Below the pieces are notes generated by a model. The model worked only from the letters and a program-made list of their open reading frames with translations, was not told the DNA's origin and did no database searches. 64,000 bases of DNA. It comes from Emticicia aquatilis. GTDB lineage: Bacteria; Bacteroidota; Bacteroidia; Cytophagales; Spirosomataceae. The stretch is from the NCBI RefSeq assembly GCF_014644295.1, contig NZ_BMKK01000003.1:496001-560000 (forward strand), in the 5' to 3' direction. The position numbers and the translations under genes were made by a program. Each line of letters opens with the position of its first letter. The first letter of the stretch is position 1. This document shows positions 22,701 through 39,028 of the stretch, one piece after another.

Positions 22701-25700
22701 CTCCTAAGTCATCCTTTAAAGTCTCGTTGATATTAATCCAAGAGCCATCTCCACCAATTGGGCGATATTGCAAGCGAATTAGTTTTAAGTCATCGTCTCC
22801 TTTATCATATTCATTTAGGGTAATACTTAATTTATTACCAGATGCTGGAGTAATTACAAAGTCTTGTAAAGGGAAGCCGATATCAACTTTTGAACATGGT
22901 TCTATAAAAGAAGCTCTTAAAGCTACCGTACTAACAAAATATTTATCAACGAGTGCGTCTCCGCCTCTTGCATCTGCTAATTCTGTTTCACATGCAGTTT
23001 CTAATTGAATAATTAGGTCTTCGTAGTTATATTCTATAGGCCCCCTATCAATTGTAAGAGTTACCTCTTGTGGCTCGTCAGGAGCTACTGTAAATGTTAC
23101 AGGTTGCGTAAGTGGTTGTCCATTTAGTCTAATTATTGCTCCATTAGGATTTGAGGCTGGGTCAACAGATAAATCATAATTCATGATTTGTCTTGTTGGG
23201 CTTTCATTACCAATTTGCAGTCTATAAACAGCCGCAGTGTTTGATGGTACGTTTACTTTTGAAACTCCGTCCAAACTTTTTAATACGGGGGCAGACCTGC
23301 GAGCTGTGACACCCTGTTCCCAAGGACAAGAGGTTTCGGCTGCATTAATTTTAAAAGTAGGAGAATCCCATCTTTTGCCATATCTTACTTCAACGCTGTA
23401 GTTATCTCCAACATCATCATCCTCTAAGTGATATGATAGAACTTTAGACTCTTGATTGGTTTCTGTATCATTATTCGATTTAGTATGCTCGTATTTTAAT
23501 TTTACGTTTCCACTAAAGCCTGATTCGTTTACCTCCAAACCATAGGTATAAGCAAACTCGGCAAATCCTACACTTTGGAATTCAAACGAGTTTTCGGTTG
23601 AGTTATCAGTTGCCCTTGACCAATCTCTTACAGCTCCTGCATCAAAAGAAATGCTTTCTATGAGTTCTCCTGTAAAATAGTCAGCATGATTTGCTGCTAC
23701 AATTTGATACCAAAGGTTTGCAGATAATGAGTCCTTTTTGGTTTTTAAACTGTATAGACTCGGAATAACATCATTGAGGATTTGAAACTCACTGTAAATA
23801 AAAGTTGTTGCGATATTCTCTCTTCCAATAATTGGTTTTGCTTTTATCGTAAACTTACAGTTCTTAAAGTCATAATTAAGTTCGTCAGCAATACCATACT
23901 CAACGTTTTTGGCAGTACCAATATACACGTCTCCTCCCATTGTACTACCAACTACTTTATCATTAGCGGATGTACTGATGGTTTCGGTTGCAGTAATACA
24001 ATTATTAGTTACGCTGGAGTTAACCCAAGTTTGATTCGACCCTCCATTTACTGAAAATGTATTGGTAATCTTAGTTTCCAAAGATGCAGCTCCAAAAAAG
24101 CTGACATTTTGTTTAGTACCTAACTTTAATTCCAATGTAGCTTCTTGATTTGCCACATTTGTTACCGTTCTTACATGTTGATTACATTTTGTTGTCCCTT
24201 TTTCCCACGTTGCGTAACTTGCATCACCAGGGGGGTCTCTGAGTATAAACTCAGGAATTTCAGGGTCACGGGTTGTAAAGGTTGTAATTCTTGGTTTTTG
24301 CCCTAAAACGATAGCGGATGTTGTATCAGTAGCGAGTGCTCCATTAACATCAGCAGTTACTGTCAAAAGCTTTTTATACGGTAAAATTAAGTTCGGTAAG
24401 CCTGGAGAAAACACATACTTGTAAGTATCGGCTTGCATGGTTAAGGTATCTACTTTTCCATCAGCTATATCGTTTGTGATGGTTAATTTAGCATTAGATA
24501 AATAACACTTACCCCCATCGTAGTTTTCATATACACGAATATTGGTTTGTGCTTGGCCAAATGATGGTAGTAATTTTACTCCACAATTATTAGCAGCAAA
24601 CTCTGCAAGTTCAACTTTAGGTGGAGCAATATAGATGAAATCAACATTAGCAGTTTGATTATCTCTTAAATCAACTTGCTGACCACCCTTAGCCTGAAAG
24701 TAATTGTAAATAACTGAGTTCGAGTGTTCTACTACACTTATTCTGAAGGCACGAGCTGGTAAGTCTTTGAACATAAACTTTCCGTCTGGGTTTCTTAGAG
24801 TATCGGTTTTTTCAAAGCATCCATCTAATGTAGCCACTTTAATTACAACTCTCGAACCATTAGGAATGATTGATTTGCGGCAAATATCATTTCCTGCTAC
24901 TTGGCCTGTTATGGTTCTCTTCGTGTTATCTAAAAAGACAATACCTGCTTTAGGGGCTTGGATTTTGCGAATTTCAAAGAAACTTGGAGAAAATAGGTGG
25001 TCTTTATAAGATGCACTTAGTTTAATTGTTCGACCTGGCTCAAAATCGGCTGACCATTTACCATTTCTGTCAGTTCTGATTGGGGGGAAGTTTTCCTGCC
25101 CATTAACCAAAATATTAATAGAGTCAGCGAAACAAAACGTATTGGAGAATCGTACATACCCCGAAACATTAACAGTAGATACGTCTTTAAAATCAATATT
25201 ACCAACCGCTGTATTACTTGTGTTTAGATTTACAACTCTTACATTTGGCTCAAATTCATGAGGTTTGGTTTCTTTTCTACGAGCATTATTACTCCAAGAA
25301 GCCTTTAGAATAGTTCCTTCACGTGGAACCGATGCTCCGAAGTTAATGGCTGCATAGTCATAAACTTTTGTATCACTACCTTCATTTAGGTCAAAATGGC
25401 TAAACAAAATGTTGGTCGTTGAATCTTGCGGAACTCCCAAGACATAATGTTCTTGAATTACGTTTTGTGGAAGGGCGGTTTTGTAGATATAAAACTCATC
25501 AACCAAACCTGTATAAAATTTACCAGTAGTAGCATTGGTTGAGTTAGTCGCCAATAGCCACGGATTACCATTTTTCCAGTTGGATGTTCCTGTAAACGAT
25601 ACTGTTCCTTTTAATTCTCCTTCTAAATAGATTTTTGCATTACCCGCTGTGTTGTCAAGTGAAACAGCCAAATGGTAATACTTAGCTCTGATAGCTCCTA

Positions 25701-27270
25701 AATCAGTAATTGTCCCATTTAGATTTAAGAAAAGCTTGCCATTTTCAATGTAGGCTTCGTAAAGGTTTCCTTTTGAAAGTACAGTTTGACGAGATTTAAT
25801 ATCGAATGGATAAAATAGCACTTCAACCGTTGAGGTATCTGGCATATCATAATCGGTCAGATTTCCGTAAGATTTATCAGCCGCATTAAACTCAAGAGCC
25901 GAATTGAACTCAAAGTTTTTTATCGGAGTAGCTCTAAAACCTTCGTTTTGGCTATAATTTATGCCATCAATGACATAGTAGCCCGTTACGTCGGTTATAC
26001 CGGCACTATACACCTCAGGTTTATCAGAAGAGAAAGTAGCACCGTAGATATTGGCGTTGGTTGGTATTGCGGTATTATCAAAAACTTTTGCACCTACGCC
26101 TTCATCCATTTTCCAGTACGAAACCAGCCCACTTTCAGATTTTGATACCGAACGGTTTTTGGTTGAGTTTACCTCTGTTTGGGTTAGCGGACGGTTATAG
26201 ACACGTATATCATCAATTTTACCTTTAAAGAAACCATCATTTCCAATCTTACTACCAATATTTAAGTAGTTTTTCTCACGCACAATGCTGGCAGGTTTTG
26301 TGCCAACAAATTCACCATCTACCATGACCGACATTGCCGCACCGTTATACACCATCGTGACTTGATGCCAATCTGTTACGTTGAATGGGTTAGTCGGTAG
26401 ATTTGGTAAATAATATTTCAAAGAATCGCTACCTGTGCCATTACCAATATGAAAAACATACCCTTTCGGTTCATTATTTTTGGTAGTGGTAATCCACCAG
26501 TTTTTATTGATAGTGCTACCCCAGTCAATGATACCACCTTCGTTGTTTACATCACCCAATTTTACATAAGCTGAAACCGTGAATTTATCCGTCGGAAATT
26601 CATCATGGTAGGTTACACAAAGTTCATCGTTTACCCCATCAAATGCCATTGAGTTTCCTGTTAGGGGGGTAAGACGCACTTCTACTCCTGGTACTGGATT
26701 GCCAGAATTAGTAGAGACTTTTCCGCTCACGACTCCATTCGGGTTTACAAAACCTACATATTTAGAGGGGCTACCCGTACCAAAAACGTTTTTAGCTACA
26801 ATACTATATTCGTAATATTCGCCCGCCTGGGTATTAAAATCTAAAAACTCACGTACGTTTTCACCCAAATCGGCCAAGAAAGAGCCATCACGGTATAATA
26901 TAAAACCCGTTGGGGGAGTAGAAAGCGGGTTTACATTCCACGAAACCTTAATTCTATCCTTAAAATCTCCTTGTGAAGCTATTAAGATTGGAGGTTGTGG
27001 AGGCAAATAAAAAGGACTATAAACTCCAAATCCTCCTTGAAAACTTTGCGAAAGCATATTACGTGGCGAAGCTAAAGGCTGGCCCATCACAAAAGTAGAG
27101 CGGTTGAATGCCGAATAGGCATTCGTGACAGAGCCATAATTGAAATACAGCTCGCCGAATATTTTTTTATTCTCGTTTGGGTCACAGAGCGTATCGGCTT
27201 GGGCAAAAGTTTTTTGCCAACCAAACAGCATTAGCCAACCCAAGAGAATGTAGAGGATTCTCTTTTGCAT
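19729..27270 (-). CDS. Giant secreted multidomain protein with LamG, FN3 and SbsA-like domains
   Basis: A 2513-residue protein with a signal peptide (ending KTFAQ, residue 23). Visible parts in order: an FN3-like domain (~95-175); two LamG/concanavalin-like jelly rolls (~200-370 and ~445-620, the first ending DDIRVYNRPLTQTEV); carboxypeptidase-regulatory-like beta-sandwiches (~690-860); a long central region; an SbsA-like Ig domain (~1530-1640, FNEPIDCN); two GWNWV segments (~1935-2080); and a C-terminal 3-coathanger-type domain ending GCSN. LamG domains suggest carbohydrate or protein binding. It is 33 bp downstream of the tail-collar-like gene and probably co-transcribed with it. No catalytic motif was recognised. 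Confidence 0.85.
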   Translation of the reverse strand: MQKRILYILLGWLMLFGWQKTFAQADTLCDPNENKKIFGELYFNYGSVTNAYSAFNRSTFVMGQPLASPRNMLSQSFQGGFGVYSPFYLPPQPPILIASQGDFKDRIKVSWNVNPLSTPPTGFILYRDGSFLADLGENVREFLDFNTQAGEYYEYSIVAKNVFGTGSPSKYVGFVNPNGVVSGKVSTNSGNPVPGVEVRLTPLTGNSMAFDGVNDELCVTYHDEFPTDKFTVSAYVKLGDVNNEGGIIDWGSTINKNWWITTTKNNEPKGYVFHIGNGTGSDSLKYYLPNLPTNPFNVTDWHQVTMVYNGAAMSVMVDGEFVGTKPASIVREKNYLNIGSKIGNDGFFKGKIDDIRVYNRPLTQTEVNSTKNRSVSKSESGLVSYWKMDEGVGAKVFDNTAIPTNANIYGATFSSDKPEVYSAGITDVTGYYVIDGINYSQNEGFRATPIKNFEFNSALEFNAADKSYGNLTDYDMPDTSTVEVLFYPFDIKSRQTVLSKGNLYEAYIENGKLFLNLNGTITDLGAIRAKYYHLAVSLDNTAGNAKIYLEGELKGTVSFTGTSNWKNGNPWLLATNSTNATTGKFYTGLVDEFYIYKTALPQNVIQEHYVLGVPQDSTTNILFSHFDLNEGSDTKVYDYAAINFGASVPREGTILKASWSNNARRKETKPHEFEPNVRVVNLNTSNTAVGNIDFKDVSTVNVSGYVRFSNTFCFADSINILVNGQENFPPIRTDRNGKWSADFEPGRTIKLSASYKDHLFSPSFFEIRKIQAPKAGIVFLDNTKRTITGQVAGNDICRKSIIPNGSRVVIKVATLDGCFEKTDTLRNPDGKFMFKDLPARAFRISVVEHSNSVIYNYFQAKGGQQVDLRDNQTANVDFIYIAPPKVELAEFAANNCGVKLLPSFGQAQTNIRVYENYDGGKCYLSNAKLTITNDIADGKVDTLTMQADTYKYVFSPGLPNLILPYKKLLTVTADVNGALATDTTSAIVLGQKPRITTFTTRDPEIPEFILRDPPGDASYATWEKGTTKCNQHVRTVTNVANQEATLELKLGTKQNVSFFGAASLETKITNTFSVNGGSNQTWVNSSVTNNCITATETISTSANDKVVGSTMGGDVYIGTAKNVEYGIADELNYDFKNCKFTIKAKPIIGRENIATTFIYSEFQILNDVIPSLYSLKTKKDSLSANLWYQIVAANHADYFTGELIESISFDAGAVRDWSRATDNSTENSFEFQSVGFAEFAYTYGLEVNESGFSGNVKLKYEHTKSNNDTETNQESKVLSYHLEDDDVGDNYSVEVRYGKRWDSPTFKINAAETSCPWEQGVTARRSAPVLKSLDGVSKVNVPSNTAAVYRLQIGNESPTRQIMNYDLSVDPASNPNGAIIRLNGQPLTQPVTFTVAPDEPQEVTLTIDRGPIEYNYEDLIIQLETACETELADARGGDALVDKYFVSTVALRASFIEPCSKVDIGFPLQDFVITPASGNKLSITLNEYDKGDDDLKLIRLQYRPIGGDGSWININETLKDDLGAVFTIKEWDSSLLKDGPYEIRAVAECFNPNLAPGISTVIKGEVARTPPVVFGVPEPGDGTWDPGDEISITFNEPIDCNKVVQADILANNTIGLYDATTNALVDATITCTGNKIIITPNINPVFFENRTFRVVVSGKDYDDAMLAQNPNHQRAAIRDKAGNMIEKTIKWEFAVNQNNLEWVGTDIIETNEVLKPFSIKRQVRNRGGSIASFRMENVPSWLTVTPSTGTLNPGQTADVTFTFQQDLLIGDYTATLNLVGSKGKEPMGIDYRVRCPQPNFVVDNPSQYESSMNIVARLSIFDKFSVDPSDVVVAKINGQIRGVGKVAYYRNIPAADATIDGLTGKPKDESNRWLVFMTVFGDDADNDKPIEFRVWDGDKCNEYVEVINRINFQTGDLVGSPIAPDTIQVINVVKKCIPLNRGWNWVSFNLNLPEGNTVTNVLASMKFKPGTIIKSEDFSAKYYGSPINGWKGSLVNITPQKRYMINVSEKDTICMKGSPYLTEEFPITISPGWNWVGYVPSTGMTVSQALKGLTPLNGDIIKSQTLFAQYVAGIGWIGNLSFLEPLKGYLLKISNAGTLVYPTGTTNRPTEEITPTALLAQAAQEAPMIFDFTKYQLTMNLIGKVNGMTIDADDELRAYINGQLVGVNKSIAHSKDRLFFQTIYFEDESNINFKLYKADRKKEYSLNRTIPFKSETLAGLVEAPIIFNLESANLVPITIDIKDQLIWQPSKIFPTVSIPAAVSGQSTACGSFTFNSVLPVGTETKPVCVSQTGLEGNMTGVMKINYNERSTFVSSNDVLSFVNPTTGLTVGCATFDSQFNVFNFTVKGGVTSAETPIDVKYYSNVMKKTFVVKSGVTYKNNKELGDYITPAPLDVSPLTITNNNGVITAVMRDTSWTGKYCVDAFALNCPNFGDGQTTFCFQRLKQGACLDVVVRNVTEGTNDVVKAVSISSQVVVNSGIRLEYKGGNKIELKPGFETKPGTVFTGKIEGCSN

Positions 27271-27303: not shown

Positions 27304-28293
27304 TTAATTGATACGGATATATACCCAGAAGTTTAAGTTGTCGGGGCGGGTTTCGTTGCCACCCGCAGAACTTGTATTACCTGTAGCAGAACCATAAATA
27401 GAGTGTGAGTGACCACCTGCTGATTCAGTAAACAAGCTATTCCATGTTAAGTCCGCTGCACCACTTCCTGTTATCCTTATACCATGTTGAGAAAGACTTA
27501 AGTTTTCATTTGCTGCTTTAAATCCACCTACACCATTTGCCCCAGAGTTAATTCTTAGATTATGCGAATGAGACCCATCAGAGTTTGTACCACCACTAAT
27601 TGATAAATTTGCTGAGTGAGTGTGGCTTCTATAATCTTCAACTTGTACTTGGGCAATCGGGCTATTTGTATCTCTATTATCATCGTAGTTCGTACTATTA
27701 GCAAATTCTTGGCTTCTGATAAACAAACCACCACCATTAGGTAGTGAAGTCATTCCCGTAATTTGGCGTAATTTATCGGTTGCAGCCAATGCACGTCCAT
27801 CCATCGGCACCCAACAGTTTCCATTTACAGCGGCAAATTGCGTAGGATTTAATATTGAATGTTTCACATCTCCCACGGCACCTGAACAAACAACTTCTTG
27901 TGCTTTTGGCGAGCCAAGCGAGTAGGGAGCAAAAGTAAGCTCTGTACGTGGCGTAAGTTCAGTTCCTTGTACGGTTACACCAACGTAGTAAGTAGAGGCA
28001 CCCCAGTTAAGGTTTTCAAGTGATACAGTTTTACCAAGGTGGGTGCTATATACACCGCCAAAGACATTAATGGTTTGGTCTTCTGTCCACTCGGCGGTTC
28101 CACCTGCTTCTTGTGTATAAAGCTTGAAAGTGATTGTCTGCTGGCCATCGGCAACTGCTTTGCCATTGGCATCTTTTAAGAAGCCTTGTAGCGATATTTT
28201 CTTAGCTTGCTGAGCTGACGCTTCAAAAGCAAAAAACAGACTGAGAGTAAATACTAACGGAATTAATTTCGAAAGTGTAAAGGATGTTTTCAT
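27304..28293 (-). CDS. Exported phage-tail-collar-like (tail-fibre-like) protein
   Basis: A 329-residue protein with a signal peptide (ending ASAQQ, ~residue 28). A beta-rich N-terminal part (~30-130, GFLKDANGKAVADGQQTITFKLY) is of a type seen before tail-collar domains in Bacteroidota. The C-terminal ~190 residues carry tail-collar features: GGGLFIRSQ, a series of HxH motifs (HTHS, HSHN, HSHS) and the ending GNETRPDNLNFWVYIRIN. In phage long tail fibres similar HxH motifs bind iron along a trimer axis. The signal peptide argues for a domesticated surface fibre rather than a prophage gene, and no other phage genes are nearby. It lies 58 bp after the LytTR gene and is probably in its operon. 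Confidence 0.85.
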   Translation of the reverse strand: MKTSFTLSKLIPLVFTLSLFFAFEASAQQAKKISLQGFLKDANGKAVADGQQTITFKLYTQEAGGTAEWTEDQTINVFGGVYSTHLGKTVSLENLNWGASTYYVGVTVQGTELTPRTELTFAPYSLGSPKAQEVVCSGAVGDVKHSILNPTQFAAVNGNCWVPMDGRALAATDKLRQITGMTSLPNGGGLFIRSQEFANSTNYDDNRDTNSPIAQVQVEDYRSHTHSANLSISGGTNSDGSHSHNLRINSGANGVGGFKAANENLSLSQHGIRITGSGAADLTWNSLFTESAGGHSHSIYGSATGNTSSAGGNETRPDNLNFWVYIRIN

Positions 28294-28351: not shown

Positions 28352-28660
28352 TTAGGAAAATGCAGTTTTGTGCTTGCGGCGAGAATACGTGAATTTTGAA
28401 TTGTCAGCCAACTCAACCTCCTGTACTCCCTGCTGACTGATTACTTTTTGCGGGTTTATCAGTACGCCTTTATTGATTCGCTGGAAATCTTGAAAAACAC
28501 TCTGCCAATAGCTAAGGCTATAGCTAACAATAAGCTTCTTTCCGCAGTCGAACTTAACTTCGTTGTAAGGCTCTTGCCCGAGATGCTTGATGTAGAGAAT
28601 ATTCTGGTGTTCGGCTAATTTAATGACCCTTGTCTTACGCCGTGGTGTATTGCTGCTCAT
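28352..28660 (-). CDS. Stand-alone LytTR DNA-binding protein
   Basis: A 102-residue protein consisting of a single LytTR-type domain (ILYIKHLGQEPYNEVKF ... FQRINKGVLINPQKV ... VELADNSKFTYSRRKHK). The conserved R-x-N-K...LIN and SRR positions of the fold are present. There is no receiver domain. It is the first gene of a probable operon with the tail-collar-like and giant genes. Two candidate promoters lie upstream, one with triple CGTGAA repeats (28811-28910) and one with an AGGGG/CCCCT palindrome (28707-28753). It could pair with the receiver-only protein at 31817-32212 as a split response regulator; that is inference. Confidence 0.85.
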   Translation of the reverse strand: MSSNTPRRKTRVIKLAEHQNILYIKHLGQEPYNEVKFDCGKKLIVSYSLSYWQSVFQDFQRINKGVLINPQKVISQQGVQEVELADNSKFTYSRRKHKTAFS

Positions 28661-28706: not shown

Positions 28707-28753
28707 CAAATGTAGGGAGGCGTTTTTTTTCCTTGACTTAGGGGTAAACCCCT
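28707..28753 (-). promoter_or_regulatory. Promoter with AGGGG-TAAA-CCCCT palindrome (proximal promoter of the LytTR gene)
   Basis: On the minus strand TACATTTG (28714-28707) fits the TAnnTTTG -7 element. There is no good -33 TTG; instead a palindrome AGGGG-TAAA-CCCCT (28740-28753) is centred about 46 bp upstream of the predicted start near 28700. The same palindrome occurs at the same distance from a -7 element in front of the propeller kinase (36290-36335). This suggests an activator site, perhaps for the NarL-type regulator at 38402-39028. Confidence 0.6.
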
Positions 28754-28810: not shown

Positions 28811-28910
28811 CAAATATTTACTTATATTGTATGATGAGCAATAGGCTTGCAGGTTCTACACCGTGAACGGTAAGAATATAATACGTGAATGGTAGAACTT
28901 ATTACGTGAA
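28811..28910 (-). promoter_or_regulatory. Distal promoter with three CGTGAA direct repeats (site A)
   Basis: CGTGAA occurs at 28862, 28884 and 28905 (spacing 22 and 21 bp), within a longer unit close to CGTGAATGGTA. On the minus strand a -7-like AATATTTG (28818-28811) lies exactly 51 bp from the nearest repeat. Direct repeats about two helical turns apart are the usual target layout of LytTR regulators. An element of identical layout precedes the receiver-only gene (32237-32335). Confidence 0.6.
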
Positions 28911-28986
28911 AGAATTCAGCGAAAAGCGAAGGAGAATGCTTATAAGTACTTTTTTATGTAGAAACAGAAGTTGTTATTAAGAAAAA

Positions 28987-29024
28987 AGAGTACCCAAAGA
29001 GAAGATATTTTCTTGGATACTCTT
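28987..29024 (-). terminator. Probable terminator of the 877-residue gene
   Basis: AAGAGTA (28987-28993) pairs with TACTCTT (29018-29024), and the stem extends imperfectly inward. On the minus strand it is followed by a run of T (the A-run at 28982-28987), 34 nt beyond the stop codon. Confidence 0.65.
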
Positions 29025-29057
29025 GAATTGATATTGGTTGTTTTTTAGTATATACGA

Positions 29058-31691
29058 TTAGTTAGTACACCCCTGAATATACGCTTGGAAAACTGTACCA
29101 TTGGCTGCTTCAAAGGTTGTTCCACCGCCGTTGGTACTGGGTTTTAATTCTACTGATTTACCTGCTTTCATTGTTACGGTAGCAGTGCCAGTAATTTTAT
29201 TGCTTGCCGAAATGCTCTCTGAGGCTTGGAAAGTTGTCGTACCAGTTGCTTTATCATCGGCTGTACTAATCAAGACTAATGTTGTTGGGCAAGGCGTACT
29301 GTTTTGGTTGAGTTTTGTTGTAAAAATGCCTCTTCCGTGAGTGGCAACAGCAACTGTGTTATCAGAAGAACGATAGCGTAACATATCGCATCGTACATTG
29401 GCCAAGCTGGCGTTTGTCGGAGACCATTGTGGGTTGGTTGCCGTAATATCACTCGTTGACCAAACACCCAGTTCAGTTGCCAAAAGTACCTGTTTGGTAT
29501 CAACAGGGTTAATGAGTGCATATCTAATCGGTATATTTTGTAAACCATACCCTGTTTCGTCTTTTGATGTCCAGTTTGTACCACCATTTACCGTATAAAA
29601 TACCGACTTGATATTATAGTTAGATTTTGTGACTACCATTGTTTGGCCACCATTGGCAAAGTCAATACTTGATACATTTCCTACGGAAGTATTAGCTTTA
29701 TCCATAATTTTTGTAAGCGTAATAGTTTGGTCGGCATCAGGAAGATTTGCTGTTTTATAAACATCTCCATCGGAGGTTCCGATGTACAAAGTATTCGATG
29801 GCCCTACTTTGATAACTGATATTTTGAGGGCTGTAAGAGCTGGTAAACCTGCATCTAAGGTATATACCACACGAGCAACCGCATAATTAGGAGCTGTTCC
29901 CGAAATAAGGTATCGTCGTATTTTGTTTTCGGTGACCGACTCATTTTTTATAGAGTAATCGGTATAGAGTTTATTGTTAGGCGAATCATAATCTGCGGCA
30001 TTAATAAAACTACCTCTTTCTTTATCGTTATCAAGAGCAATTGCCCCTGTTTTGTTAGTTGGACCATTCGGAAAAAGCTCAACATCTAAGTTTGTATAGC
30101 TTGCAATAAGGATATTGGAATCTTCTTGGTCAATAAAGCAGAGTCCACCATCACCGCCTTTTATCTCGAAACCATTTCCTAAAGTGCCATAGTTTGAGGT
30201 AATCGTTTGTGAACCATTATCTTGAGCTCCACCCATTACTAAACCCGCATTAGCTGCTCCAGCCATTGCAACACCAAAAAATTGTGTTACGTTGTAGCCA
30301 TTTGTTCTACGCTGAAAATCAGGTGCAGTAGCTGTGGCATCGCCCCACTCAGCTGAATAAAAAACTCCACCATCATTACCAAATATAGCTTCATTCGGAA
30401 AACCAGGGCGTGCTGCGAAAGCATGATTATCCACAAAAAACTTATTGGTTGGGGGATAAAAATAATTAGACCCATATTCAAATTTCCATGCTGGATTTCC
30501 ACTTACTGAAACGCCTCCTGTATAAGAAATTCCAATCGTAGTGCCACCTGCATAAATGACATTTGGGTCGGTTGGTTTTATTCCCAATACAAGATTATAT
30601 GTGCCTTGTTTACCCGTAAAAGGTGGTTTGGGGTTTGATTCTCCATCAACATCGAGAGGTACAATTACATCTGTCCAATTAGCCCCAGCATCAACACTTT
30701 TCTTGAAAAAAGCAACTCTTGAACCCGCCGCTACTGCATAAATTACTTGAGAATTTCCACTTGTACTTGGGGCAAGTGCTAATTCGACTCTACTTGGTGC
30801 GAATGTACCCGCTGGTGTGATAGTTGTAAAAGCACTGGCCGTATTATCGGTTGACTTATATATTTTGGGGTTGTTTACTCCTCCTTCGGCAATGTAGAGA
30901 ATCCCGTCACTACCCATTTTCATATCAGTTATAATGCCAGGATTGTTGTAGTCAATGGCTGGAGCTCCAGTACCAGTCAAAGTAGCCCATGTTGTACCGC
31001 CATCGGTTGATTTCAATACCCCTTGAAAAGTAAGTGCAAAAACGTGTCCTTGGGCATTAACTACTATATTCAATACTTCTCTCCAACTGGAAGCAAGAGT
31101 AGTACTATTTACATAGTCGGGTATAGTAGAGGTCAATAGCGACCAGCTTGTACCACCATTGGTTGATTTCCAAATGCCACCACCACCTGTGCCAGACGCC
31201 CCCGTATTATCTGTTTTATCTGATGCACTTCTTTCGCCTGTGCCTACATACATAATTTGGGTATTGCTGGGGTCATAAGTAATGCAGCCAATGGCTATAT
31301 TATCCCAAAAATCATTCACTTTTGTCCATACTGTGGTGTTGGTAGTAATATCATTATTGTACCATAATCCACCAGAAACACCACCTGCCCACACTTTCTT
31401 TTTGTTGGCATCGTTTGGGTCCCACATTAAGGCACGAGTACGCCCACCCACATTATTTGGCCCACGTTCTACCCAAGTTATGTTTGGAATTGGAGCCATC
31501 AATTTTATCATTTTCGACATGATTGCTCTCGATTTTTCGAGTTCATGGCGAGGCATTAGACCTGTCTTGGGGTCTTTTGTTCTCTCGTATTCAAATCTGG
31601 CCCTTTCTTCGGGGTTTTCTTTTTCTTCTTGTGATATAGCAAAAAACGGAATACTCAACAAGAGCAAGTATAAGTAGAGGTTATTTTTCAT
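29058..31691 (-). CDS. Secreted BNR/VPS10-type propeller protein with coathanger-type C-terminus
   Basis: An 877-residue protein with a signal peptide (ending FFAISQ, ~residue 20). The main body (~75-790) shows repeated Asp-box/BNR motifs (STNGGTSW, STDGGTTW, SVDAGANW, TVNGGTNW) and phrases such as GRTRALMWDPND and MYVGTGE. These are typical of sialidase-like or VPS10-like beta-propellers annotated in Bacteroidota exoproteins. No sialidase Arg-triad was recognised, so enzymatic activity is not claimed. The last ~80 residues are a 3-coathanger-type domain (GKSVELKPS ... FQAYIQGCTN), shared with the 1583- and 2513-residue proteins. The gene has its own terminator and lies next to the receiver-only gene. 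Confidence 0.86.
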   Translation of the reverse strand: MKNNLYLYLLLLSIPFFAISQEEKENPEERARFEYERTKDPKTGLMPRHELEKSRAIMSKMIKLMAPIPNITWVERGPNNVGGRTRALMWDPNDANKKKVWAGGVSGGLWYNNDITTNTTVWTKVNDFWDNIAIGCITYDPSNTQIMYVGTGERSASDKTDNTGASGTGGGGIWKSTNGGTSWSLLTSTIPDYVNSTTLASSWREVLNIVVNAQGHVFALTFQGVLKSTDGGTTWATLTGTGAPAIDYNNPGIITDMKMGSDGILYIAEGGVNNPKIYKSTDNTASAFTTITPAGTFAPSRVELALAPSTSGNSQVIYAVAAGSRVAFFKKSVDAGANWTDVIVPLDVDGESNPKPPFTGKQGTYNLVLGIKPTDPNVIYAGGTTIGISYTGGVSVSGNPAWKFEYGSNYFYPPTNKFFVDNHAFAARPGFPNEAIFGNDGGVFYSAEWGDATATAPDFQRRTNGYNVTQFFGVAMAGAANAGLVMGGAQDNGSQTITSNYGTLGNGFEIKGGDGGLCFIDQEDSNILIASYTNLDVELFPNGPTNKTGAIALDNDKERGSFINAADYDSPNNKLYTDYSIKNESVTENKIRRYLISGTAPNYAVARVVYTLDAGLPALTALKISVIKVGPSNTLYIGTSDGDVYKTANLPDADQTITLTKIMDKANTSVGNVSSIDFANGGQTMVVTKSNYNIKSVFYTVNGGTNWTSKDETGYGLQNIPIRYALINPVDTKQVLLATELGVWSTSDITATNPQWSPTNASLANVRCDMLRYRSSDNTVAVATHGRGIFTTKLNQNSTPCPTTLVLISTADDKATGTTTFQASESISASNKITGTATVTMKAGKSVELKPSTNGGGTTFEAANGTVFQAYIQGCTN

Positions 31692-31816
31692 AATAAAAGG
31701 TTCTTTCTCTGTAAAATTAGTATGTTTTTAAGTTTTTCTTAGAAAAGGTGCGTAGTAACAGGCATTTTTTATTGAATGGTAAATATCAAGGCTTTTAATA
31801 TTTTGAATACTTATTT

Positions 31817-32212
31817 TCAACTATCTAAGGCATACAAATTACGTTTCGAGAATAAAAACGATTCGATATGGGTTTTGAAAATATACTCATCGACTGGTTT
31901 TTGAAGATAAAATTTAGTGAAGTGTAGCGATTTGTATTGATTATAATAGACTTGACTTTCGTAGGCACTGCAAATAATCACCCAAGTTGAGGCGTCTTTC
32001 AGAAACTTTATGAGGTCGATGCCTGTGACTGATTCTTGTAGCTTGATGTCAACAATAATGAGCATGTATGACCGCTTCGAGACTTCGTTTAGGAATTCTT
32101 TCGAGCTGCTTATATAAAGTGTTTCGATTTCGGGAAACTGATTGAGAATCATCTCAATAGAAAGTTGGTCGCTCAGAGAATCCTCTAAGACCAAACAGTT
32201 GAATTGTTTCAT
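31817..32212 (-). CDS. Receiver-only response regulator protein
   Basis: A 131-residue protein that is just a CheY-like receiver: acidic pair E10/D11, phospho-acceptor D55 (IIVDIKLQE) and K105 (LQKP). It is clearly paralogous to the receiver half of the LytTR regulator next door (shared NCLVLED, FPEI, GIDLI, QYKSL, FLF). It lacks the linker and LytTR output domain, and only 125 bp separate it from the next gene, so no decayed output domain is present. It may be a phosphate sink, a competitor for the kinase, or the receiver half of a split regulator. A CGTGAA-repeat promoter lies directly upstream. Confidence 0.88.
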   Translation of the reverse strand: MKQFNCLVLEDSLSDQLSIEMILNQFPEIETLYISSSKEFLNEVSKRSYMLIIVDIKLQESVTGIDLIKFLKDASTWVIICSAYESQVYYNQYKSLHFTKFYLQKPVDEYIFKTHIESFLFSKRNLYALDS

Positions 32213-32236
32213 TATTTATGTGCCTGATTCAATGCA

Positions 32237-32335
32237 CAAAGGTTCTGAACTATTCAAAGAAATGCAATACCAGCTTCCCTGTCATTGCGTGAATGGTAGC
32301 TTTTATTACGTGAATGGATGTTTTTTTAGCGTAAT
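32237..32335 (-). promoter_or_regulatory. Promoter with three CGTGAA-type direct repeats (site B)
   Basis: CGTGAATGGTAG at 32288, CGTGAATGGATG at 32309 and CGTAATTGGTAA at 32330 are spaced exactly 21 bp. On the minus strand AACCTTTG (32244-32237) is a near-consensus -7 element 51 bp from the first repeat. A TTG at 32267-32265 could serve as the -33 element. Transcription would start near 32230, giving an 18-nt leader to the receiver-only gene. The geometry matches site A at 28811-28910. Confidence 0.65.
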
Positions 32336-32388
32336 TGGTAATCTTGAGTATGGCCCCGAAACATTCGTATATTGATGATGGTTCTACG

Positions 32389-33123
32389 TTAGACAGCTTT
32401 ATCAATATACTTATCAATAAATAATTGTTTGTTGCTTCTACTAATCTGAATTTGGTGCTTGTCGATTTCGATATAATTTTCTTTGATATTGATGCGTCGG
32501 ACGGCATTCATGTTTACCAAAGAATTGCGATTTGCTTTCTCGAAGTAATATTCTTTCAATAAATCTTCAAATGTTTTTAACGAAGTATAAGTAGTATATT
32601 TAGTTTTATCAGTGTAAACCGTTGTGGCGTGGTCGGCGGTTTCGATAAGTATAATATCGGTATAGGATACTTTGTAGAGATAATTGCCTTGCTTGAGCAT
32701 AACGTAGTTGTCGGGAATAATGGTTGTACTCACCGCAGCAGTTTGTTCTTCCTTTTGATTAAACAAAAACGACTCAAGGTTGGTCTTGAATATAAATTCG
32801 TCAATTGGTTTTTTGATGAAAAACTTATTGAACTTCAATGACTTATACTGCTCATAATAATCTTTGCTATCCATCGAACTCGAAATGATAACCCACGCCG
32901 AAGTATCGGTAATTGAATGAATCAAATCAATACCTGTGAGCGAATCTTGTAGCATAATATCAACAATGAAGATGTGATACTTTTGCTTCGATAATTCCTG
33001 CAAAAATCCCTTCGGAGTGTTGACATAAGTTGCACGAATTTCGGGGAATTGGTCCAAAACCATCTCGATAGCCAGCTGGTCGTTGAGGGTATCCTCCAAT
33101 ACTAAGCAGTTGTAATATCTCAT
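32389..33123 (-). CDS. LytTR-family response regulator
   Basis: A 244-residue response regulator. The receiver (~1-120) has the acidic pair E10/D11, phospho-acceptor D55 and K105. A linker follows, then a LytTR DNA-binding domain (~140-240; IPDNYVMLKQGNYLYKVSYTDIILIE, then RNSLVNMNAVRRI and ISRSNKQ). The ATG overlaps the stop codon of the propeller kinase upstream (ATGA), so kinase and regulator are translationally coupled and probably cognate. It is the best local candidate to bind the CGTGAA direct repeats in front of the receiver-only and LytTR-only genes. Confidence 0.92.
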   Translation of the reverse strand: MRYYNCLVLEDTLNDQLAIEMVLDQFPEIRATYVNTPKGFLQELSKQKYHIFIVDIMLQDSLTGIDLIHSITDTSAWVIISSSMDSKDYYEQYKSLKFNKFFIKKPIDEFIFKTNLESFLFNQKEEQTAAVSTTIIPDNYVMLKQGNYLYKVSYTDIILIETADHATTVYTDKTKYTTYTSLKTFEDLLKEYYFEKANRNSLVNMNAVRRINIKENYIEIDKHQIQISRSNKQLFIDKYIDKAV

Positions 33124-36100
33124 TTGTGTTTAGGTAATGTTTCAAATTGCAGTCTGGCGATAAATGTATCTTTACTCTCCAGTTTATCAAGTTTTATGCC
33201 CGCTTTTTCTAAGAGGGGTAACAATAAAGTCAGTCCCAGGCCTAAGCCGTTGTGTAATATACGATTTTCGTTACCCCTTTGGTTTTCTATCTCTAAAAAA
33301 TAATTACTGTCTGATACAAGAACCGAAACTTTAATTTTTGATTGTGGAGTTGAATGTACAATGGCATTAAAAAGTAAGTTTCTTAGTATGATTACGAGTA
33401 AACCATAGTCGAATTTTGCCCATATATCGGCATTAACGATTTCAAACGAAAGAGATTTTTCATTCAATTCATCGGTATAAATATCAAAAATCTGATTGAT
33501 GAGTTCTCCTAAATTTCGCTCTGTGAGATTCAACTCCCAGTTTTTATTGGTACTTTTTACCCAATAGACCAGTTCATCAATGAGCCACAATACTTTTCGA
33601 CTTTTGTTTTCGGTTTCTTTGCCGAGCAAGAAGAGCCTTTCGTGGTCATTTTTTTGAGTGAGATATGCCAGTTTTTTAGATAAATCATAGAAACTTTGTA
33701 TCGGATAACGAACGTCATGTACTAACAGTGAAAGCAAAGTTTCTTTCAGTGTCAAGCTTTCTTTGAGTGAGTGGGTTTGTTCATCTACTTTCTTTTGCAG
33801 AAGCTCATTGCGTAGGCGTAATTGATAAGTAGAGTAGGTGATAACTCCCCAAATTAAAAGACCTAAAATAATCAATACGATTGGTGCAAAATACCATTCA
33901 AAATACAAAGGTTTTTGTCGATTAATGGTTAGTTTTTGGATACGGGCCTCAGTAAAATTATCGCAACTCACAACTCTGATTTCGATGTTTGTTGTACCGT
34001 GGTCAATGTTGTTGAGTAATAATTTTCGGTCAGATAGTGGCACCCAGTCACTCTCTACCGACTTATCGCTGCGGTAGTAGTATTTTTTGTTACAATCATA
34101 CTTATAATCTTCGTATGCAAGTATCAGTTCGATACTGCTTTCGCTGCGTTCGAGGTCAAGAGATGATTGATTGAAGTTAGTAAATTCTCGATTTTTTGAC
34201 AACCCTTCGTAGGTATATAAGGCATCTATTTTTATATCAAATTGTTTTTCTTTTTGACTCGAAAAATTGATTGGGTTTATTACATTCAGCCCGTTGATTC
34301 CACCAAAATATAAAATATCATTATCGTCTTGGTAATGTGCCAATCGATTACACTCTTTGGTCGTAAGGCCATCGGTTTCGGTATAAATTTTTAGTAAAAT
34401 CCCTTTGTCGTCAAAGTGCCAAACCCCTTCATCTGAGCTGGCCCAAACTCCATTATTTGTGCGATAAGCCGACAGGTATTTTTTTCTCTGAAAATCAATA
34501 TCTTGTATAAAAGGACTTGTGATTCGTTTGGTCAAATCATAAACCCAAATACCGCTAATGCTGGAAATGAGTAGTTGATTTGCTTCTTTTTTGTCTTTTC
34601 GTATCGAAAAACAAGTCATTTGAAAATCTGCTTGTTTGGGAAACGGTATTTTCTCAAAAACTTCATTGTTTTTCAATCGGTATAAACCCGCTTCTGAAGC
34701 CACCAAAACCTCGTTTTCGTTGACCACAAAGAAGTCATAAATAATAGAGTTTTTTAAGGTTTTATCAATCTTAGGATATTGCTTGGTTTGTTTTCTTTTC
34801 TTATCGTAGAAGATAATTCCCTTCTTTTCGAGTCCCAATAAAAGTCCGTCTTTATACTGAGCAATCGACCAAATTTTGGTGCTATCGAGTTGGCATAAAG
34901 TAATGTCTTTGTTTTGTTGCAAGTCTGTTTTAAACAAGGCGTTTTCGCCAAAGAGCAAATCGCCATCTTTGTCTTTTAGTACCGATAAAATGAAGCGGTT
35001 ATCAGCTCCTATTTCTTTCTCAAATTGTTTGATTGATACGACCTTATCGGTTTTAAGATTTATCAACTGCCTTCTTTTGTTGGTGTTGACAATGAGTCTT
35101 TCATCGTCGATTTTTAAGATAGCTCGGCACGAATAATTATCATTGATTTTATCGGGTTGAGAATTTTTTAAAAAAGTCTTTATTTTTTGCTCAATTAGCC
35201 TAATGATATGCACACCATTATTGGTCGTCAGAAACAAATTTCCCTTGTTATCGCTGACTATATCATGAATCAAAAAGTCAAACTTTTCTCTTTTGAGCAA
35301 AACCATATCTTTATTGAAAAACTCAATGGCATTACCTTGGTTTACGACGAAGAAATCTTTGTTTTTATCATAAATGATATTTCCTAAATAACTGTCTTTT
35401 GAAACCTCAAAACGCTTACTGAAAGTACCTCCAACTTCAGTTAGTTCGATAACTCCTTCGGTGATATGTGCTACATAAAATAGACGATTATCAAATTCCA
35501 GAATTGACCTGATGAACTTAGCTTTGAGTGGCTCTTGCCTAATGATTTTGCCATCAGTATTTAGATGTATGAGGTGCGTATCGCTTCGAGAGTCTTTTTC
35601 GGTACATACAACTATGCCTTTTGTGCCAGCATAAAGTAGTTTGACTGGCGTTTTAGCCAGTGTAGCAAGCAAACTTAGCTTTTTTGTTTTTAGGTCGAAA
35701 CGATATATCTGCCCAACTTTTGTGCTGATGTATATTTGTCGCTTCGAGTCGGCTATGATTGAGTGAATAGGAAGGTTTTGACCAATGTATTTTTCAATAG
35801 CAACCGAGGTCTTATTGATGGGATTGAAAATGACACATCGCTGAATATTAAACGGGTAATACCACTCGAAGTTTTCGGTGAGCCAAAAATTCCCCTCGGC
35901 ATCTTCGATGGCAGAATTATAGCCTTTGTTTGAATAGGCATTGGCAAATTCAAAGTTTTTAATGTTTCCGTTTTCTAACAGACCAATTTTGTTGTTAGTC
36001 AAAAACCAAACATTGTTCTTAGAATCAATGAGTGTGGAATTGACGTGGCTATCACTTAGACCATCGTTATTGGTCAAGTGTTTTCGGATAAGTGCCAAAT

Positions 36101-36188
36101 CATAGTGAACAGTTTGGCCAAAAAGAAAAGTACTTAAGAAAAAAAAGCTTAAAAAAAGCAATTTTTTGCTCAAAAAACGTGGTTTCAT
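33120..36188 (-). CDS. Propeller-type sensor histidine kinase
   Basis: From ATG 36188 this is a 1022-residue kinase; the TTG 48 bp upstream would put a poor extension before the signal peptide (MKPRFLSKKLLFLSFFFLST). The periplasmic part (~25-760) holds Reg_prop beta-propeller repeats (DSKNNVWFLTNN, DAEGNFWLTEN, DNKGNLFLTTNNGV) and a Y_Y_Y-type beta-sandwich. One membrane segment (~778-800, FAPIVLIILGLLIWGVITY) precedes a coiled coil. The HisKA domain has H824 in LVHDVRYP, and an HATPase domain ends with GLGLGLTLLLP. Unlike hybrid versions it has no receiver or AraC output; the separate LytTR regulator overlaps its stop codon. The promoter carries an AGGGG/CCCCT palindrome. Signal unknown. 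Confidence 0.92.
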   Translation of the reverse strand: MKPRFLSKKLLFLSFFFLSTFLFGQTVHYDLALIRKHLTNNDGLSDSHVNSTLIDSKNNVWFLTNNKIGLLENGNIKNFEFANAYSNKGYNSAIEDAEGNFWLTENFEWYYPFNIQRCVIFNPINKTSVAIEKYIGQNLPIHSIIADSKRQIYISTKVGQIYRFDLKTKKLSLLATLAKTPVKLLYAGTKGIVVCTEKDSRSDTHLIHLNTDGKIIRQEPLKAKFIRSILEFDNRLFYVAHITEGVIELTEVGGTFSKRFEVSKDSYLGNIIYDKNKDFFVVNQGNAIEFFNKDMVLLKREKFDFLIHDIVSDNKGNLFLTTNNGVHIIRLIEQKIKTFLKNSQPDKINDNYSCRAILKIDDERLIVNTNKRRQLINLKTDKVVSIKQFEKEIGADNRFILSVLKDKDGDLLFGENALFKTDLQQNKDITLCQLDSTKIWSIAQYKDGLLLGLEKKGIIFYDKKRKQTKQYPKIDKTLKNSIIYDFFVVNENEVLVASEAGLYRLKNNEVFEKIPFPKQADFQMTCFSIRKDKKEANQLLISSISGIWVYDLTKRITSPFIQDIDFQRKKYLSAYRTNNGVWASSDEGVWHFDDKGILLKIYTETDGLTTKECNRLAHYQDDNDILYFGGINGLNVINPINFSSQKEKQFDIKIDALYTYEGLSKNREFTNFNQSSLDLERSESSIELILAYEDYKYDCNKKYYYRSDKSVESDWVPLSDRKLLLNNIDHGTTNIEIRVVSCDNFTEARIQKLTINRQKPLYFEWYFAPIVLIILGLLIWGVITYSTYQLRLRNELLQKKVDEQTHSLKESLTLKETLLSLLVHDVRYPIQSFYDLSKKLAYLTQKNDHERLFLLGKETENKSRKVLWLIDELVYWVKSTNKNWELNLTERNLGELINQIFDIYTDELNEKSLSFEIVNADIWAKFDYGLLVIILRNLLFNAIVHSTPQSKIKVSVLVSDSNYFLEIENQRGNENRILHNGLGLGLTLLLPLLEKAGIKLDKLESKDTFIARLQFETLPKHK

Positions 36189-36289
36189 TGTGGCTTGGTT
36201 ATTAGGTCGTAAAACTAAGTAAAATGCGAAATACAAAAAACACCTTCTGATAAGTATTTTTTGTTTTGTTTCGATACATTTTCACTGTG

Positions 36290-36335
36290 CAAATTTATAA
36301 TTATAGTATTTTGCTGGATACAAGGGGAAACCCCT
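36290..36335 (-). promoter_or_regulatory. Promoter of the propeller kinase with AGGGG-AAA-CCCCT palindrome
   Basis: On the minus strand TAAATTTG (36297-36290) is a -7 element. The palindrome AGGGG-AAA-CCCCT (36323-36335) begins 33 bp upstream, as at 28707-28753. ACTGTGCAAAT also precedes the palindrome by 39 bp in both places. Only one palindrome lies between the divergent propeller-kinase and TPR-kinase genes, so it may serve both. Confidence 0.6.
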
Positions 36336-36398: not shown

Positions 36399-38405
36399 AT
36401 GAAAGATTTAAGAGAGTGTTGGCTACTGCTTTTGTTAGTGGCATTTGTAATTTCTATCGGGCAAGGATGTAGCAGCGATGGCGACAAAACAATGAGGAAA
36501 TCTGAGATTCAAAAATCAGATAGTATTCATAATTGGCTACTTAATGATAAAAATTACGTCAATAAAGAGCAATATCGAAAGGTGTTTATGAAGCATTTTG
36601 ATGAGGCTATTGCAAAGAAAAACTATGATGAGGCAAAGATGTTACTCGTGGATTATGGAGATATGATTTTTCCGCTTCATGCTTACGATAGCCTTTATCA
36701 TCGTACATTAAATAATTTTATTGATAAACACAATGAAACACTTCTCAGTGATTCGACAAGTGCAACACTTTACTATCTAAGTGCTAATCAATATCATAAT
36801 TTGAATCAAGTTGAAAAGATGCGTTTGTTCACCTTGAAAGGATTAGAGAAATGCAATTTTGCTCATGCCGAAAATATGATAATAAGGCTCAAGAACTTCA
36901 TGGGTTTGTATTATACCGAAAAAAGCCAGCCCGAAAAAGCGATACAGGTTTTTATGGAGGTAATTCCTTTAGCCGAAAAACTAAAAGCCTACAGACGTTT
37001 GGGGTCTCTGTATAATAATATGGCATATTGCTATGATATGCTCTATGCCTCAACGGAGTCGGCAAGAATGTATGAAAAGTCGGCGAAGAGTTTTTTGCTG
37101 GCCAAGGATACCACTAATTATCTTGATTTATCAATAACCTATGCCATTAACCAACTATTTTTCTCTAACGATACACTCAAGACAGTTCGTTTGATAGATT
37201 CTTCTTTGGCGGTATTTGCAAAGTACAAGCAGGCCAGAGGTATGGACAGTTGCAATGCTAATAATGGCTTGGCCTATAAATATTATTTGACTAAGCAGTA
37301 TGAAAAAGCCAAATATCATATTGATAAAAGTACAGATTACTTCAAATCGGTAGGTAATGAAGAACTCTTGCCTTATAATCAGAATTTAGCAACACTTATT
37401 TACTTTGCTCAACACAAGAAACTTGAAGATTCGCCCAAAGTGGAAGAGTTAGCCAAGCAACTTTTGGCAGACGAGAGCTACTATGATGCGATAGAATTAT
37501 ACGGAATTTTATATGCCAATGCCAAGACACAAGGTAATTATGCCAAGGCTCTTGAGTTTCGCAATAAAGAAGTAAGCTTGAATGATTCCTTAACCGTTAA
37601 AAATCAAAAAGGACAATTGTTTGAGTTAGAAAAAAAATACGAAACTCAAAAAAAAGAACAAGAGATACTAACTCAGAAGAACGAAATTTCTCAAAAAAAT
37701 ACCTTTATCGCTTTATTGGTGGCTTCGCTTGCGGGGTTAGTTCTGATAATTATAGTTTATTACTTGTGGCAAAAACAAGCGAAACTTAAACAAGAAAAAG
37801 AAAATGGTATGAATTTTACGAAGCAACTACTCGAAAATACCGAAGAAGAACGCAAACGCATTGCCAGCGATTTGCACGATAGTATCAGCCACGAATTACT
37901 CAATCTTAAATCTATCTTTACGCAAGATTTGGCAGTGGTAAACACAAAGATTGATACAATAATCAACGATATTCGAGGTATTAGCCGAAATCTCCACCCT
38001 GTGATGTTTGATAAAATTGGACTCGTACCGAATATCGAACAGTTGGTCGAACGAATCCAGAATCAGAATAATTTCTTTATAAGTACCGATATATCTTATG
38101 CAGGAAAACTCACTTCGGCCGACGAATTACAGATTTATCGTATCATTCAAGAAGCTCTCACTAATGTCATTAAATATGCTAATGCTCATGCTGCCAAGAT
38201 TACTATCGAAGAACAACCCGATAAGATACTTGTCGAGCTGAGAGATAATGGACATGGATTTAATGTAAAAGAAACCCTAAATAGCGGAAAAGCTTTTGGG
38301 CTGCATAACATCATCGAACGAAGCCGTGTAATTGGTGGCGAAGCCAACATTACTTCATCACCGAATGGTACAATTATTACGATTAACATACCCAAAAAAT
38401 TATGA
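36399..38405 (+). CDS. TPR-repeat sensor histidine kinase (HisKA_3 type), lipoprotein-like leader
   Basis: A 668-residue kinase. The leader ends in a lipobox-like IGQGC, so the N-terminus may be lipidated. Residues ~60-400 are TPR-like helices (for example RRLGSLYNNMAYCYDMLYASTESARMYEKSAKSF). A coiled coil and one membrane segment (~434-454, FIALLVASLAGLVLIIIVYYL) lead to a HisKA_3 dimerisation domain with H493 in ERKRIASDLHD, and an HATPase domain (DNGHGF, GLHNI). This NarL-partner type phosphorylates LuxR-type regulators, and the regulator gene overlaps its stop codon by 4 nt (ATGA). Signal unknown; TPRs suggest protein contact. Confidence 0.92.
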   Translation: MKDLRECWLLLLLVAFVISIGQGCSSDGDKTMRKSEIQKSDSIHNWLLNDKNYVNKEQYRKVFMKHFDEAIAKKNYDEAKMLLVDYGDMIFPLHAYDSLYHRTLNNFIDKHNETLLSDSTSATLYYLSANQYHNLNQVEKMRLFTLKGLEKCNFAHAENMIIRLKNFMGLYYTEKSQPEKAIQVFMEVIPLAEKLKAYRRLGSLYNNMAYCYDMLYASTESARMYEKSAKSFLLAKDTTNYLDLSITYAINQLFFSNDTLKTVRLIDSSLAVFAKYKQARGMDSCNANNGLAYKYYLTKQYEKAKYHIDKSTDYFKSVGNEELLPYNQNLATLIYFAQHKKLEDSPKVEELAKQLLADESYYDAIELYGILYANAKTQGNYAKALEFRNKEVSLNDSLTVKNQKGQLFELEKKYETQKKEQEILTQKNEISQKNTFIALLVASLAGLVLIIIVYYLWQKQAKLKQEKENGMNFTKQLLENTEEERKRIASDLHDSISHELLNLKSIFTQDLAVVNTKIDTIINDIRGISRNLHPVMFDKIGLVPNIEQLVERIQNQNNFFISTDISYAGKLTSADELQIYRIIQEALTNVIKYANAHAAKITIEEQPDKILVELRDNGHGFNVKETLNSGKAFGLHNIIERSRVIGGEANITSSPNGTIITINIPKKL

Positions 38406-39028
38406 GAATACTTATTGCCGACGACCACCCTTTTACACTTATGGGTACAAAAGGTTTTGTAGAATCGTTGGGCTACAAAGTAGAAGACATCTGTTCAAAT
38501 GGAATTACGGCCTATAATCTCATTAATACGCATCAACCTAATATAGCCATTCTCGACATCAATATGCCAGGCATGGATGGCCTCGAAGTACTCGAAAAAG
38601 TACATAGGCAGAAGCTAAAAACCAAGGTTATTTTGCTTACAATGCACAAAGAAATGACGATTTTCAAGAAAGCAAATCAGTTGGAAGTGTCGGGCTATAT
38701 TCTGAAAGAAAATGCCCAAGAAGAGTTACAGTTGTGTTTGGAAGCCGTGAAAAAAGGGAATCAGTATGTCAGTAAAAACCTCGAAAATGATTTATTGATA
38801 GATAATTCTCAGGGTAGTAGCGATGAACTTTTAAATAAATTGAGTTTTACGGAAAAGAAAATTCTCGAACTAATTGCCCAACAAAAAACCTCGAAACAAA
38901 TAGCCGAGATGCTATTTATCTCCGAAAAAACCGTTGAAGGACATCGAACCAATATTATTCAGAAGCTCGAACTACCAAAAGAAAAAAATGTGCTATTAGT
39001 TTGGGCGAGTAAATATTTTAAAGGATAG
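38402..39028 (+). CDS. NarL/LuxR-type response regulator
   Basis: A 208-residue regulator. The receiver has the D7/D8 acidic pair, phospho-acceptor D52 (ILDINMPG) and K102. A LuxR-type helix-turn-helix follows (~145-205, LSFTEKKILELIAQQKTSKQIAEML, then SEKTVEGHR). It is translationally coupled to the TPR kinase through an ATGA overlap. Such regulators bind short inverted repeats as dimers. The AGGGG/CCCCT palindromes upstream of this operon, the propeller kinase and the LytTR gene are therefore reasonable targets, by inference. A two-way terminator follows. Confidence 0.94.
   Translation: MRILIADDHPFTLMGTKGFVESLGYKVEDICSNGITAYNLINTHQPNIAILDINMPGMDGLEVLEKVHRQKLKTKVILLTMHKEMTIFKKANQLEVSGYILKENAQEELQLCLEAVKKGNQYVSKNLENDLLIDNSQGSSDELLNKLSFTEKKILELIAQQKTSKQIAEMLFISEKTVEGHRTNIIQKLELPKEKNVLLVWASKYFKG

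Follow-up and report, generated by a model that had tools for sequence, protein, structure and literature searches.

Tandem repeats at a fixed distance from two Emticicia aquatilis promoters as candidate LytTR operators

The window analysed here is a stretch of 64,000 nucleotides (nt) of Emticicia aquatilis DNA (contig 3, 496001-560000) out of a 6.75 Mb genome (G000). Its minus strand carries, in order, genes for a sensor kinase and a LytTR response regulator, a group of short direct repeats (site 2), genes for a receiver-only protein and a surface protein of 877 amino acids (aa), a second group of the same repeats (site 1), and genes for a LytTR-only protein, a 329-aa protein and a 2513-aa surface protein. 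A second kinase gene and that of a LuxR-type regulator lie divergently, upstream of the LytTR kinase (Table 1). The two sites share motif and geometry, and they co-occur with the LytTR regulator in related genera; we consider them as candidate operators for it. The relatives that recur below are taken as an Emticicia sp. metagenome-assembled genome (MAG; G004, 81% complete), Arcicella aurantiaca DSM 22214 (G075), Lacihabitans sp. CCS-44 (G169) and a Flectobacillus sp. MAG (G020, 88% complete).

Table 1. Coordinates of the repeat sites, promoters and genes within the window
Feature	Position	Strand	Details
Site 1	28862-28915	-	three direct copies of TACCRTTCACG (28905-28915 partial, 28884-28894, 28862-28872), period 21-22; conserved in G004
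Site 1 core promoter	28811-28841	-	TTG (28839-28841), 20 nt, AATATTTG (28811-28818)
Site 2	32288-32339	-	good copies at 32309-32319 and 32288-32298, with a weak distal one at 32330-32339
Site 2 core promoter	32237-32267	-	TTG (32265-32267), 20 nt, AACCTTTG (32237-32244)
LytTR response regulator (proposed binder, both sites)	32389-33123	-	PF04397, 57.3 bits (cut-off 22.6)
Proposed partner sensor kinase	33120-36236	-	Reg_prop propeller above cut-off; kinase models matched only below curated cut-offs
Receiver-only protein (site 2 target)	31817-32212	-	56% identity with the regulator's receiver; phosphorylation residues retained
877-aa surface protein	29058-31691	-	GCX_COOH C-terminal domain
LytTR-only protein, first gene past site 1	28352-28660	-	PF04397, 23.2 bits (cut-off 22.6)
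329-aa protein, second gene in likely operon	27304-28293	-	homologues directly after a site in Arcicella
2513-aa surface protein	19729-27270	-	GCX_COOH domain; 66% identity over full length with the Arcicella 2516-aa protein of the orthologous operon
Second promoter of the LytTR-only gene	28707-28751	-	GGGTTTACCC (28742-28751), 27 nt, TACATTTG (28707-28714)
Like element ahead of the kinase gene	36290-36333	-	GGGTTTCCCC, TAAATTTG
TPR-like histidine kinase (36399-38405) and LuxR-type response regulator (38402-39028)	36399-39028	+	proposed binder of GGGGTTTACCCC

Repeat sequence and promoter geometry

A sequence-only reading of the window had reported a triple CGTGAA repeat at both places. Five of the six copies are exact (28862, 28884, 28905, 32288 and 32309), but the copy at 32330 is a weak variant, CGTAATTGGT, whose minus strand ACCAATTACG matches 8 of the 10 letters of ACCATTCACG. 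At site 1 the distal copy (28905) consists of TTCACG plus just one further letter of the 10 that are common. The claimed repeat spacing of 21-22 bp was recovered on measurement (22/21 at site 1 and 21/21 at site 2), as was the identical 51-bp geometry: CAAA, TTTG on the minus strand, starts at 28811 and 32237, each 51 bp before the nearest repeat. That reading did not list a TTG common to both sites. After the proximal repeat come 20 nt, TTG at the -33 place, 20 nt and an nAnnTTTG box, giving a repeat-to-box gap of exactly 43 nt.

The same arrangement was found at ten promoters in five genomes. The gap is 43 nt in eight of them (two each in G000, G004 and Lacihabitans, one in Flectobacillus, and the Arcicella subtilase promoter) and 44 nt in the Arcicella receiver and 325-aa promoters. 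TTG lies 20 nt past the repeat in 8/10, the exceptions being the Lacihabitans surface promoter (TAG) and Flectobacillus (ATA). Boxes of the nAnnTTTG type are placed at -12 to -5 (PMC9723704, in extract), which puts the centre of the proximal repeat at -61. The repeats hence hold a fixed-phase position just upstream of the core promoter, as expected of an operator. They share a 10-bp core, ACCRTTCACG, with a period of 21-23 and spacers of 11-13. Repeats two helical turns apart had been called typical of LytTR regulators, and these values agree with the short repeats of about 9 bp, 10-13 bp apart, that an extract of PMC11347149 gives for LytTR direct-repeat operators.

Individual repeats carry little signal. 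CGTGAA shows no enrichment within the window (36 copies against 31.85 expected, with 29 of 100 shuffles reaching 36), and a loose double-repeat pattern is at chance genome-wide (16 matches against 20 in the reversed control). The strict triple TTCAC-N16/17-TTCAC-N16/17-TTMAC has one match in the whole genome (control 0), and CACG-N10-13-ACCRYTCACG has four (control 0), three at the window sites and one within a coding frame. We also scored repeat pairs with a matrix of nine copies from G000 and G004. The score of each window promoter region was reached by 0/200 sequences drawn at matching neighbour frequencies, a comparison that is not independent in that both sites were themselves in the matrix. 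The six sites of Arcicella, Lacihabitans and Flectobacillus, all outside the matrix, scored 20.3-38.0 against a maximum of 14.2 among 200 sampled sequences per region, the regions having been chosen with the sites already known.

The arrangement resembles that of the AgrA promoters P2 and P3 of Staphylococcus aureus, where direct repeats recognized by a LytTR response regulator lie upstream of the core promoter, with the proximal one at about -60 (PMC4227749, in extract). It differs in repeat sequence, in the Bacteroidota -7 box, in having two to three copies, and in its targets, giant surface proteins and a receiver-only gene. Three short direct repeats also make up the triple operators of RcoM and CoxC, with RcoM spacers of 12-13 bp; those regulators are one-component proteins that respond to carbon monoxide and use a TTCNNGCA-type motif, and CoxC represses from an operator that overlaps -35 (PMC11347149, in extract). 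CoxC illustrates that LytTR regulators are able to repress, and occupied repeats could likewise shut the present promoters off. We consider this unlikely: 20 nt separate the end of the repeats from the downstream TTG, with no overlap of the core, and 9/10 boxes lack the first T of TAnnTTTG and so fall below consensus, as would be expected where promoters are activated. Activation by a bound LytTR regulator is the reading weighed below.

Distribution of the regulator and the sites

Orthologues of the regulator were sought in two surveys, one of 38 genomes including G000 with every candidate scored (threshold 1e-15), the other of 222 family genomes with up to 12 candidates scored in each (threshold 1e-25). 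The first gave matches in 5/38 genomes and, within the genus (11 genomes), only in G000 and G004. The nearest named relative encountered is an Emticicia MAG, with a regulator 93% identical. The second gave matches in 9/222 genomes, with identities of 73% in Arcicella, 66% in Lacihabitans, 58% in Flectobacillus and 41-43% in four genomes of a further genus (g2). Close orthologues (at least 58% identity) were thus found in 5/222 genomes, and all five of these, from four genera, have a tandem site.

In G000, G004, Arcicella and Lacihabitans the receiver-only gene follows the regulator, and in all four the intervening gap holds the repeat pair of site 2. When receiver promoters from three genera are compared, the main conserved blocks are the repeats, TTG and TTTG. 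Lacihabitans has in addition three repeat copies ahead of an immunoglobulin-domain gene. Arcicella has extra sites ahead of a Peptidase_S8 gene and of a 325/315/2516-aa operon, the latter with its site on contig C2 and the regulator on C6. The Flectobacillus repeat pair lies upstream of the kinase gene in divergent orientation, close to a contig end beyond which the target gene falls. Two side observations concern these loci. A different short LytTR-like gene (G075:C2 354736-355068, L153) lies upstream of the Arcicella surface operon, by eye before the site rather than after it. The sister MAG G004 (contig 91; L038 7389-8227, 2263-2976) has lost most of the 877-aa surface gene and kept both LytTR sites.

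Matches to CACG-N10-13-ACCRYTCACG follow the regulator. The five genomes with it gave 11 against 2 in the reversed control; nine Emticicia genomes without it gave 2 against 6, both within long open frames of a single gene type that we read as Gfo/Idh-type. We place the probability that the repeats are LytTR operators, bound by the neighbouring regulator and activating surface-protein and receiver genes, at roughly 0.82, because the same repeats recur at the same distance in related genera that keep the regulator. The proposal that the regulator at 32389-33123 is the binder gains support from this co-occurrence and from the same-geometry sites in Arcicella, Lacihabitans and the Flectobacillus MAG.

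Several results weigh against this reading. Over 19 genomes, the CACG pattern had 15 matches against 11 in reversed controls, nine at 7/10 known promoters and six in open frames (G000, G004, G006, G010 and two in G017). It misses three of the ten known sites (G020, the G169 receiver and the G075 325-aa promoters), so absence elsewhere is unproven. A pattern of single repeat plus promoter, which yielded the Arcicella C2 site, is at background over the 19 genomes (32 matches against 36 in the reversed control, 8 of the 32 being sites described here) and has 9 matches, as a bare count, in the nine Emticicia genomes without the regulator. In the four g2 genomes with a 41-43% orthologue, the 19 kb around that orthologue hold no site that compares (best score 13.7). 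The presence pattern is not independent either, since G000 and G004 are near relatives, and kinship makes it weaker than the counts suggest. Finally, a matrix scan upstream of homologues of the 329-aa gene, where some stretches are coding, found no site at the second Arcicella homologue, on C20. That scan took in 13 of 14 loci (our own excluded), of which 12 gave rows (L164 gave none). Two rows were the single Arcicella C2 site; the other ten, nine of them in genomes lacking a regulator match and one from C20, were negative at 5.4 or below, where sampled sequences reached 17.9.

The repeats could instead be bound by the LytTR-only protein, regulating its own gene. Its LytTR domain exceeds the cut-off and its gene is directly downstream of site 1, and we regard this as a shade less probable than repression. 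Strong orthologues (E 1e-13 or better, in a search that excluded G075 and G169) were found in nine relatives, the frame being broken in G006. The sequence-only reading would have counted absence of the repeats upstream of orthologues in close relatives as refuting, and formally that outcome holds: within 450 bp they are present only in G004. But the other eight relatives also have no regulator match at 1e-15. Repeat absence thus tracks the regulator and makes conserved binding by the LytTR-only protein less likely. Moreover, the Arcicella and Lacihabitans sites sit before receiver, subtilase and surface genes. One stretch present in four copies at 477-bp spacing (G007:C12 6261-7753) is probably a repeated domain of a large coding gene.

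Regulator, kinase and receiver

On the reading that the full regulator binds, its proposed partner kinase is encoded next to it. The receiver domain of the regulator scores below the curated cut-off (PF00072, 26.9 against 30.2 bits) and retains the acidic pair, D55, S82 and K105; we therefore describe it as a LytTR protein with a divergent receiver. A sequence search of the PDB with the regulator gave 0 matches. The kinase gene adjoins that of the regulator also in G004, G075, G169, G020 and G011. Its listed TTG start may be incorrect; a signal sequence would be better accommodated by an internal ATG (MKPRFLSKK).

The kinase would phosphorylate the regulator, whose LytTR domains are predicted to bind side by side on two or three copies of TACCRTTCACG, the proximal one centred near -61. 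Bound regulator may then recruit RNA polymerase to promoters with imperfect boxes. Its first target would be the likely operon of LytTR-only, 329-aa and 2513-aa genes, and its second the receiver-only gene, with which the 877-aa surface gene is possibly cotranscribed. Receivers are able to act as phosphate sinks. The receiver-only protein almost duplicates the regulator's receiver; it probably takes phosphate away from the kinase in this way and would thereby close a negative feedback loop. D11, D55, S82 and K105 are invariant across four aligned receiver-only proteins.

A second promoter element and the proposed circuit

Control of the LytTR-only gene by site 1, as first proposed, is consistent with the upstream position of the site and its retention in G004, but a second, consensus-like promoter (28707-28714) lies nearer the gene. 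It combines TACATTTG with GGGGTTTACCCC and is common to G001, G002 and G008, all without the repeats. That this promoter alone drives the operon, with the site 1 repeats and TTTG incidental, is the least probable alternative, since site 1 is retained in G004 although the spacing of the GGGG promoter changed there, and Lacihabitans likewise has LytTR repeats and then a GGGG promoter ahead of a surface gene.

The second element has a distribution of its own. The pattern CAAANNTA-N14-30-GGGDWAMCCC gave 24 matches in the 19 genomes against 15 in reversed controls. We inspected 22 of them, leaving out L143 (L138 in a shifted reading) and L131 (identical in letters to L129). In fifteen an open frame starts 46-307 nt downstream (G000, 2; G001, 3; G002, 4; G008, 4; G169, 2); the remaining seven (G004, G007, G139, G169 and three in G011) are not promoter-like, promoter-likeness being our own judgement. 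Orthologues of the LuxR-type regulator at 77% identity or more occur in 5/19 genomes, exactly the five with promoter-like matches. The associated kinase and regulator have HATPase_c, HisKA_3, Response_reg and GerE domains above cut-off and TPR_12 below. Among the regions preceding ten LytTR-only genes, GGGN4CCC occurs in those of G000, G001, G002, G008 and G004 and is absent from those of G005, G006, G009, G010 and G017. As an element in its own right, GGGKTTWCCC followed after about 26-27 nt by TAnnTTTG recurs in promoter-like form ahead of genes for LytTR-only proteins, kinases, surface proteins and other response regulators (in relatives at L123, L126, L127, L133, L135, L136, L139-L141, L144 and L145).

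G004 fits less well. Its element is altered (GGGTATACCC with 14 nt, and GGGGTTTGCCC ahead of the kinase gene) with the LytTR repeats retained, and the LuxR-type orthologue was not found there at 1e-45. This result is only suggestive, as the genome is 81% complete. Upstream of its kinase gene we saw, by eye, only a short stretch like the start of the second kinase gene.

The second kinase and LuxR-type regulator probably use GGGGTTTACCCC to act on the LytTR kinase gene as well as on the LytTR-only gene, and the double input would likely constitute a feed-forward loop. As a tentative whole, rather short of an even chance, the two adjacent two-component systems would form one circuit: the LuxR-type system would act via GGGGTTTACCCC on the LytTR kinase operon and the giant surface operon, the LytTR regulator would act on that same surface operon at a distinct promoter lying upstream, and the LytTR-induced receiver copy would damp the signal.

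The candidate operator is of an ordinary LytTR type at an AgrA-like position, and its sequence and small regulon are newly recognized. The repeat had been thought undescribed; in keeping with this, our literature search found no LytTR operator in Bacteroidota in the titles or abstract openings it returned, and the one Flavobacterium paper it met concerns different repeats (PMC10197871, in extract). With a sequence, a fixed geometry and a short list of targets from four genera, the link between regulator and targets becomes directly testable; these features provide a template for locating further LytTR operators across the phylum. They also tie a LytTR operator to very large surface proteins.

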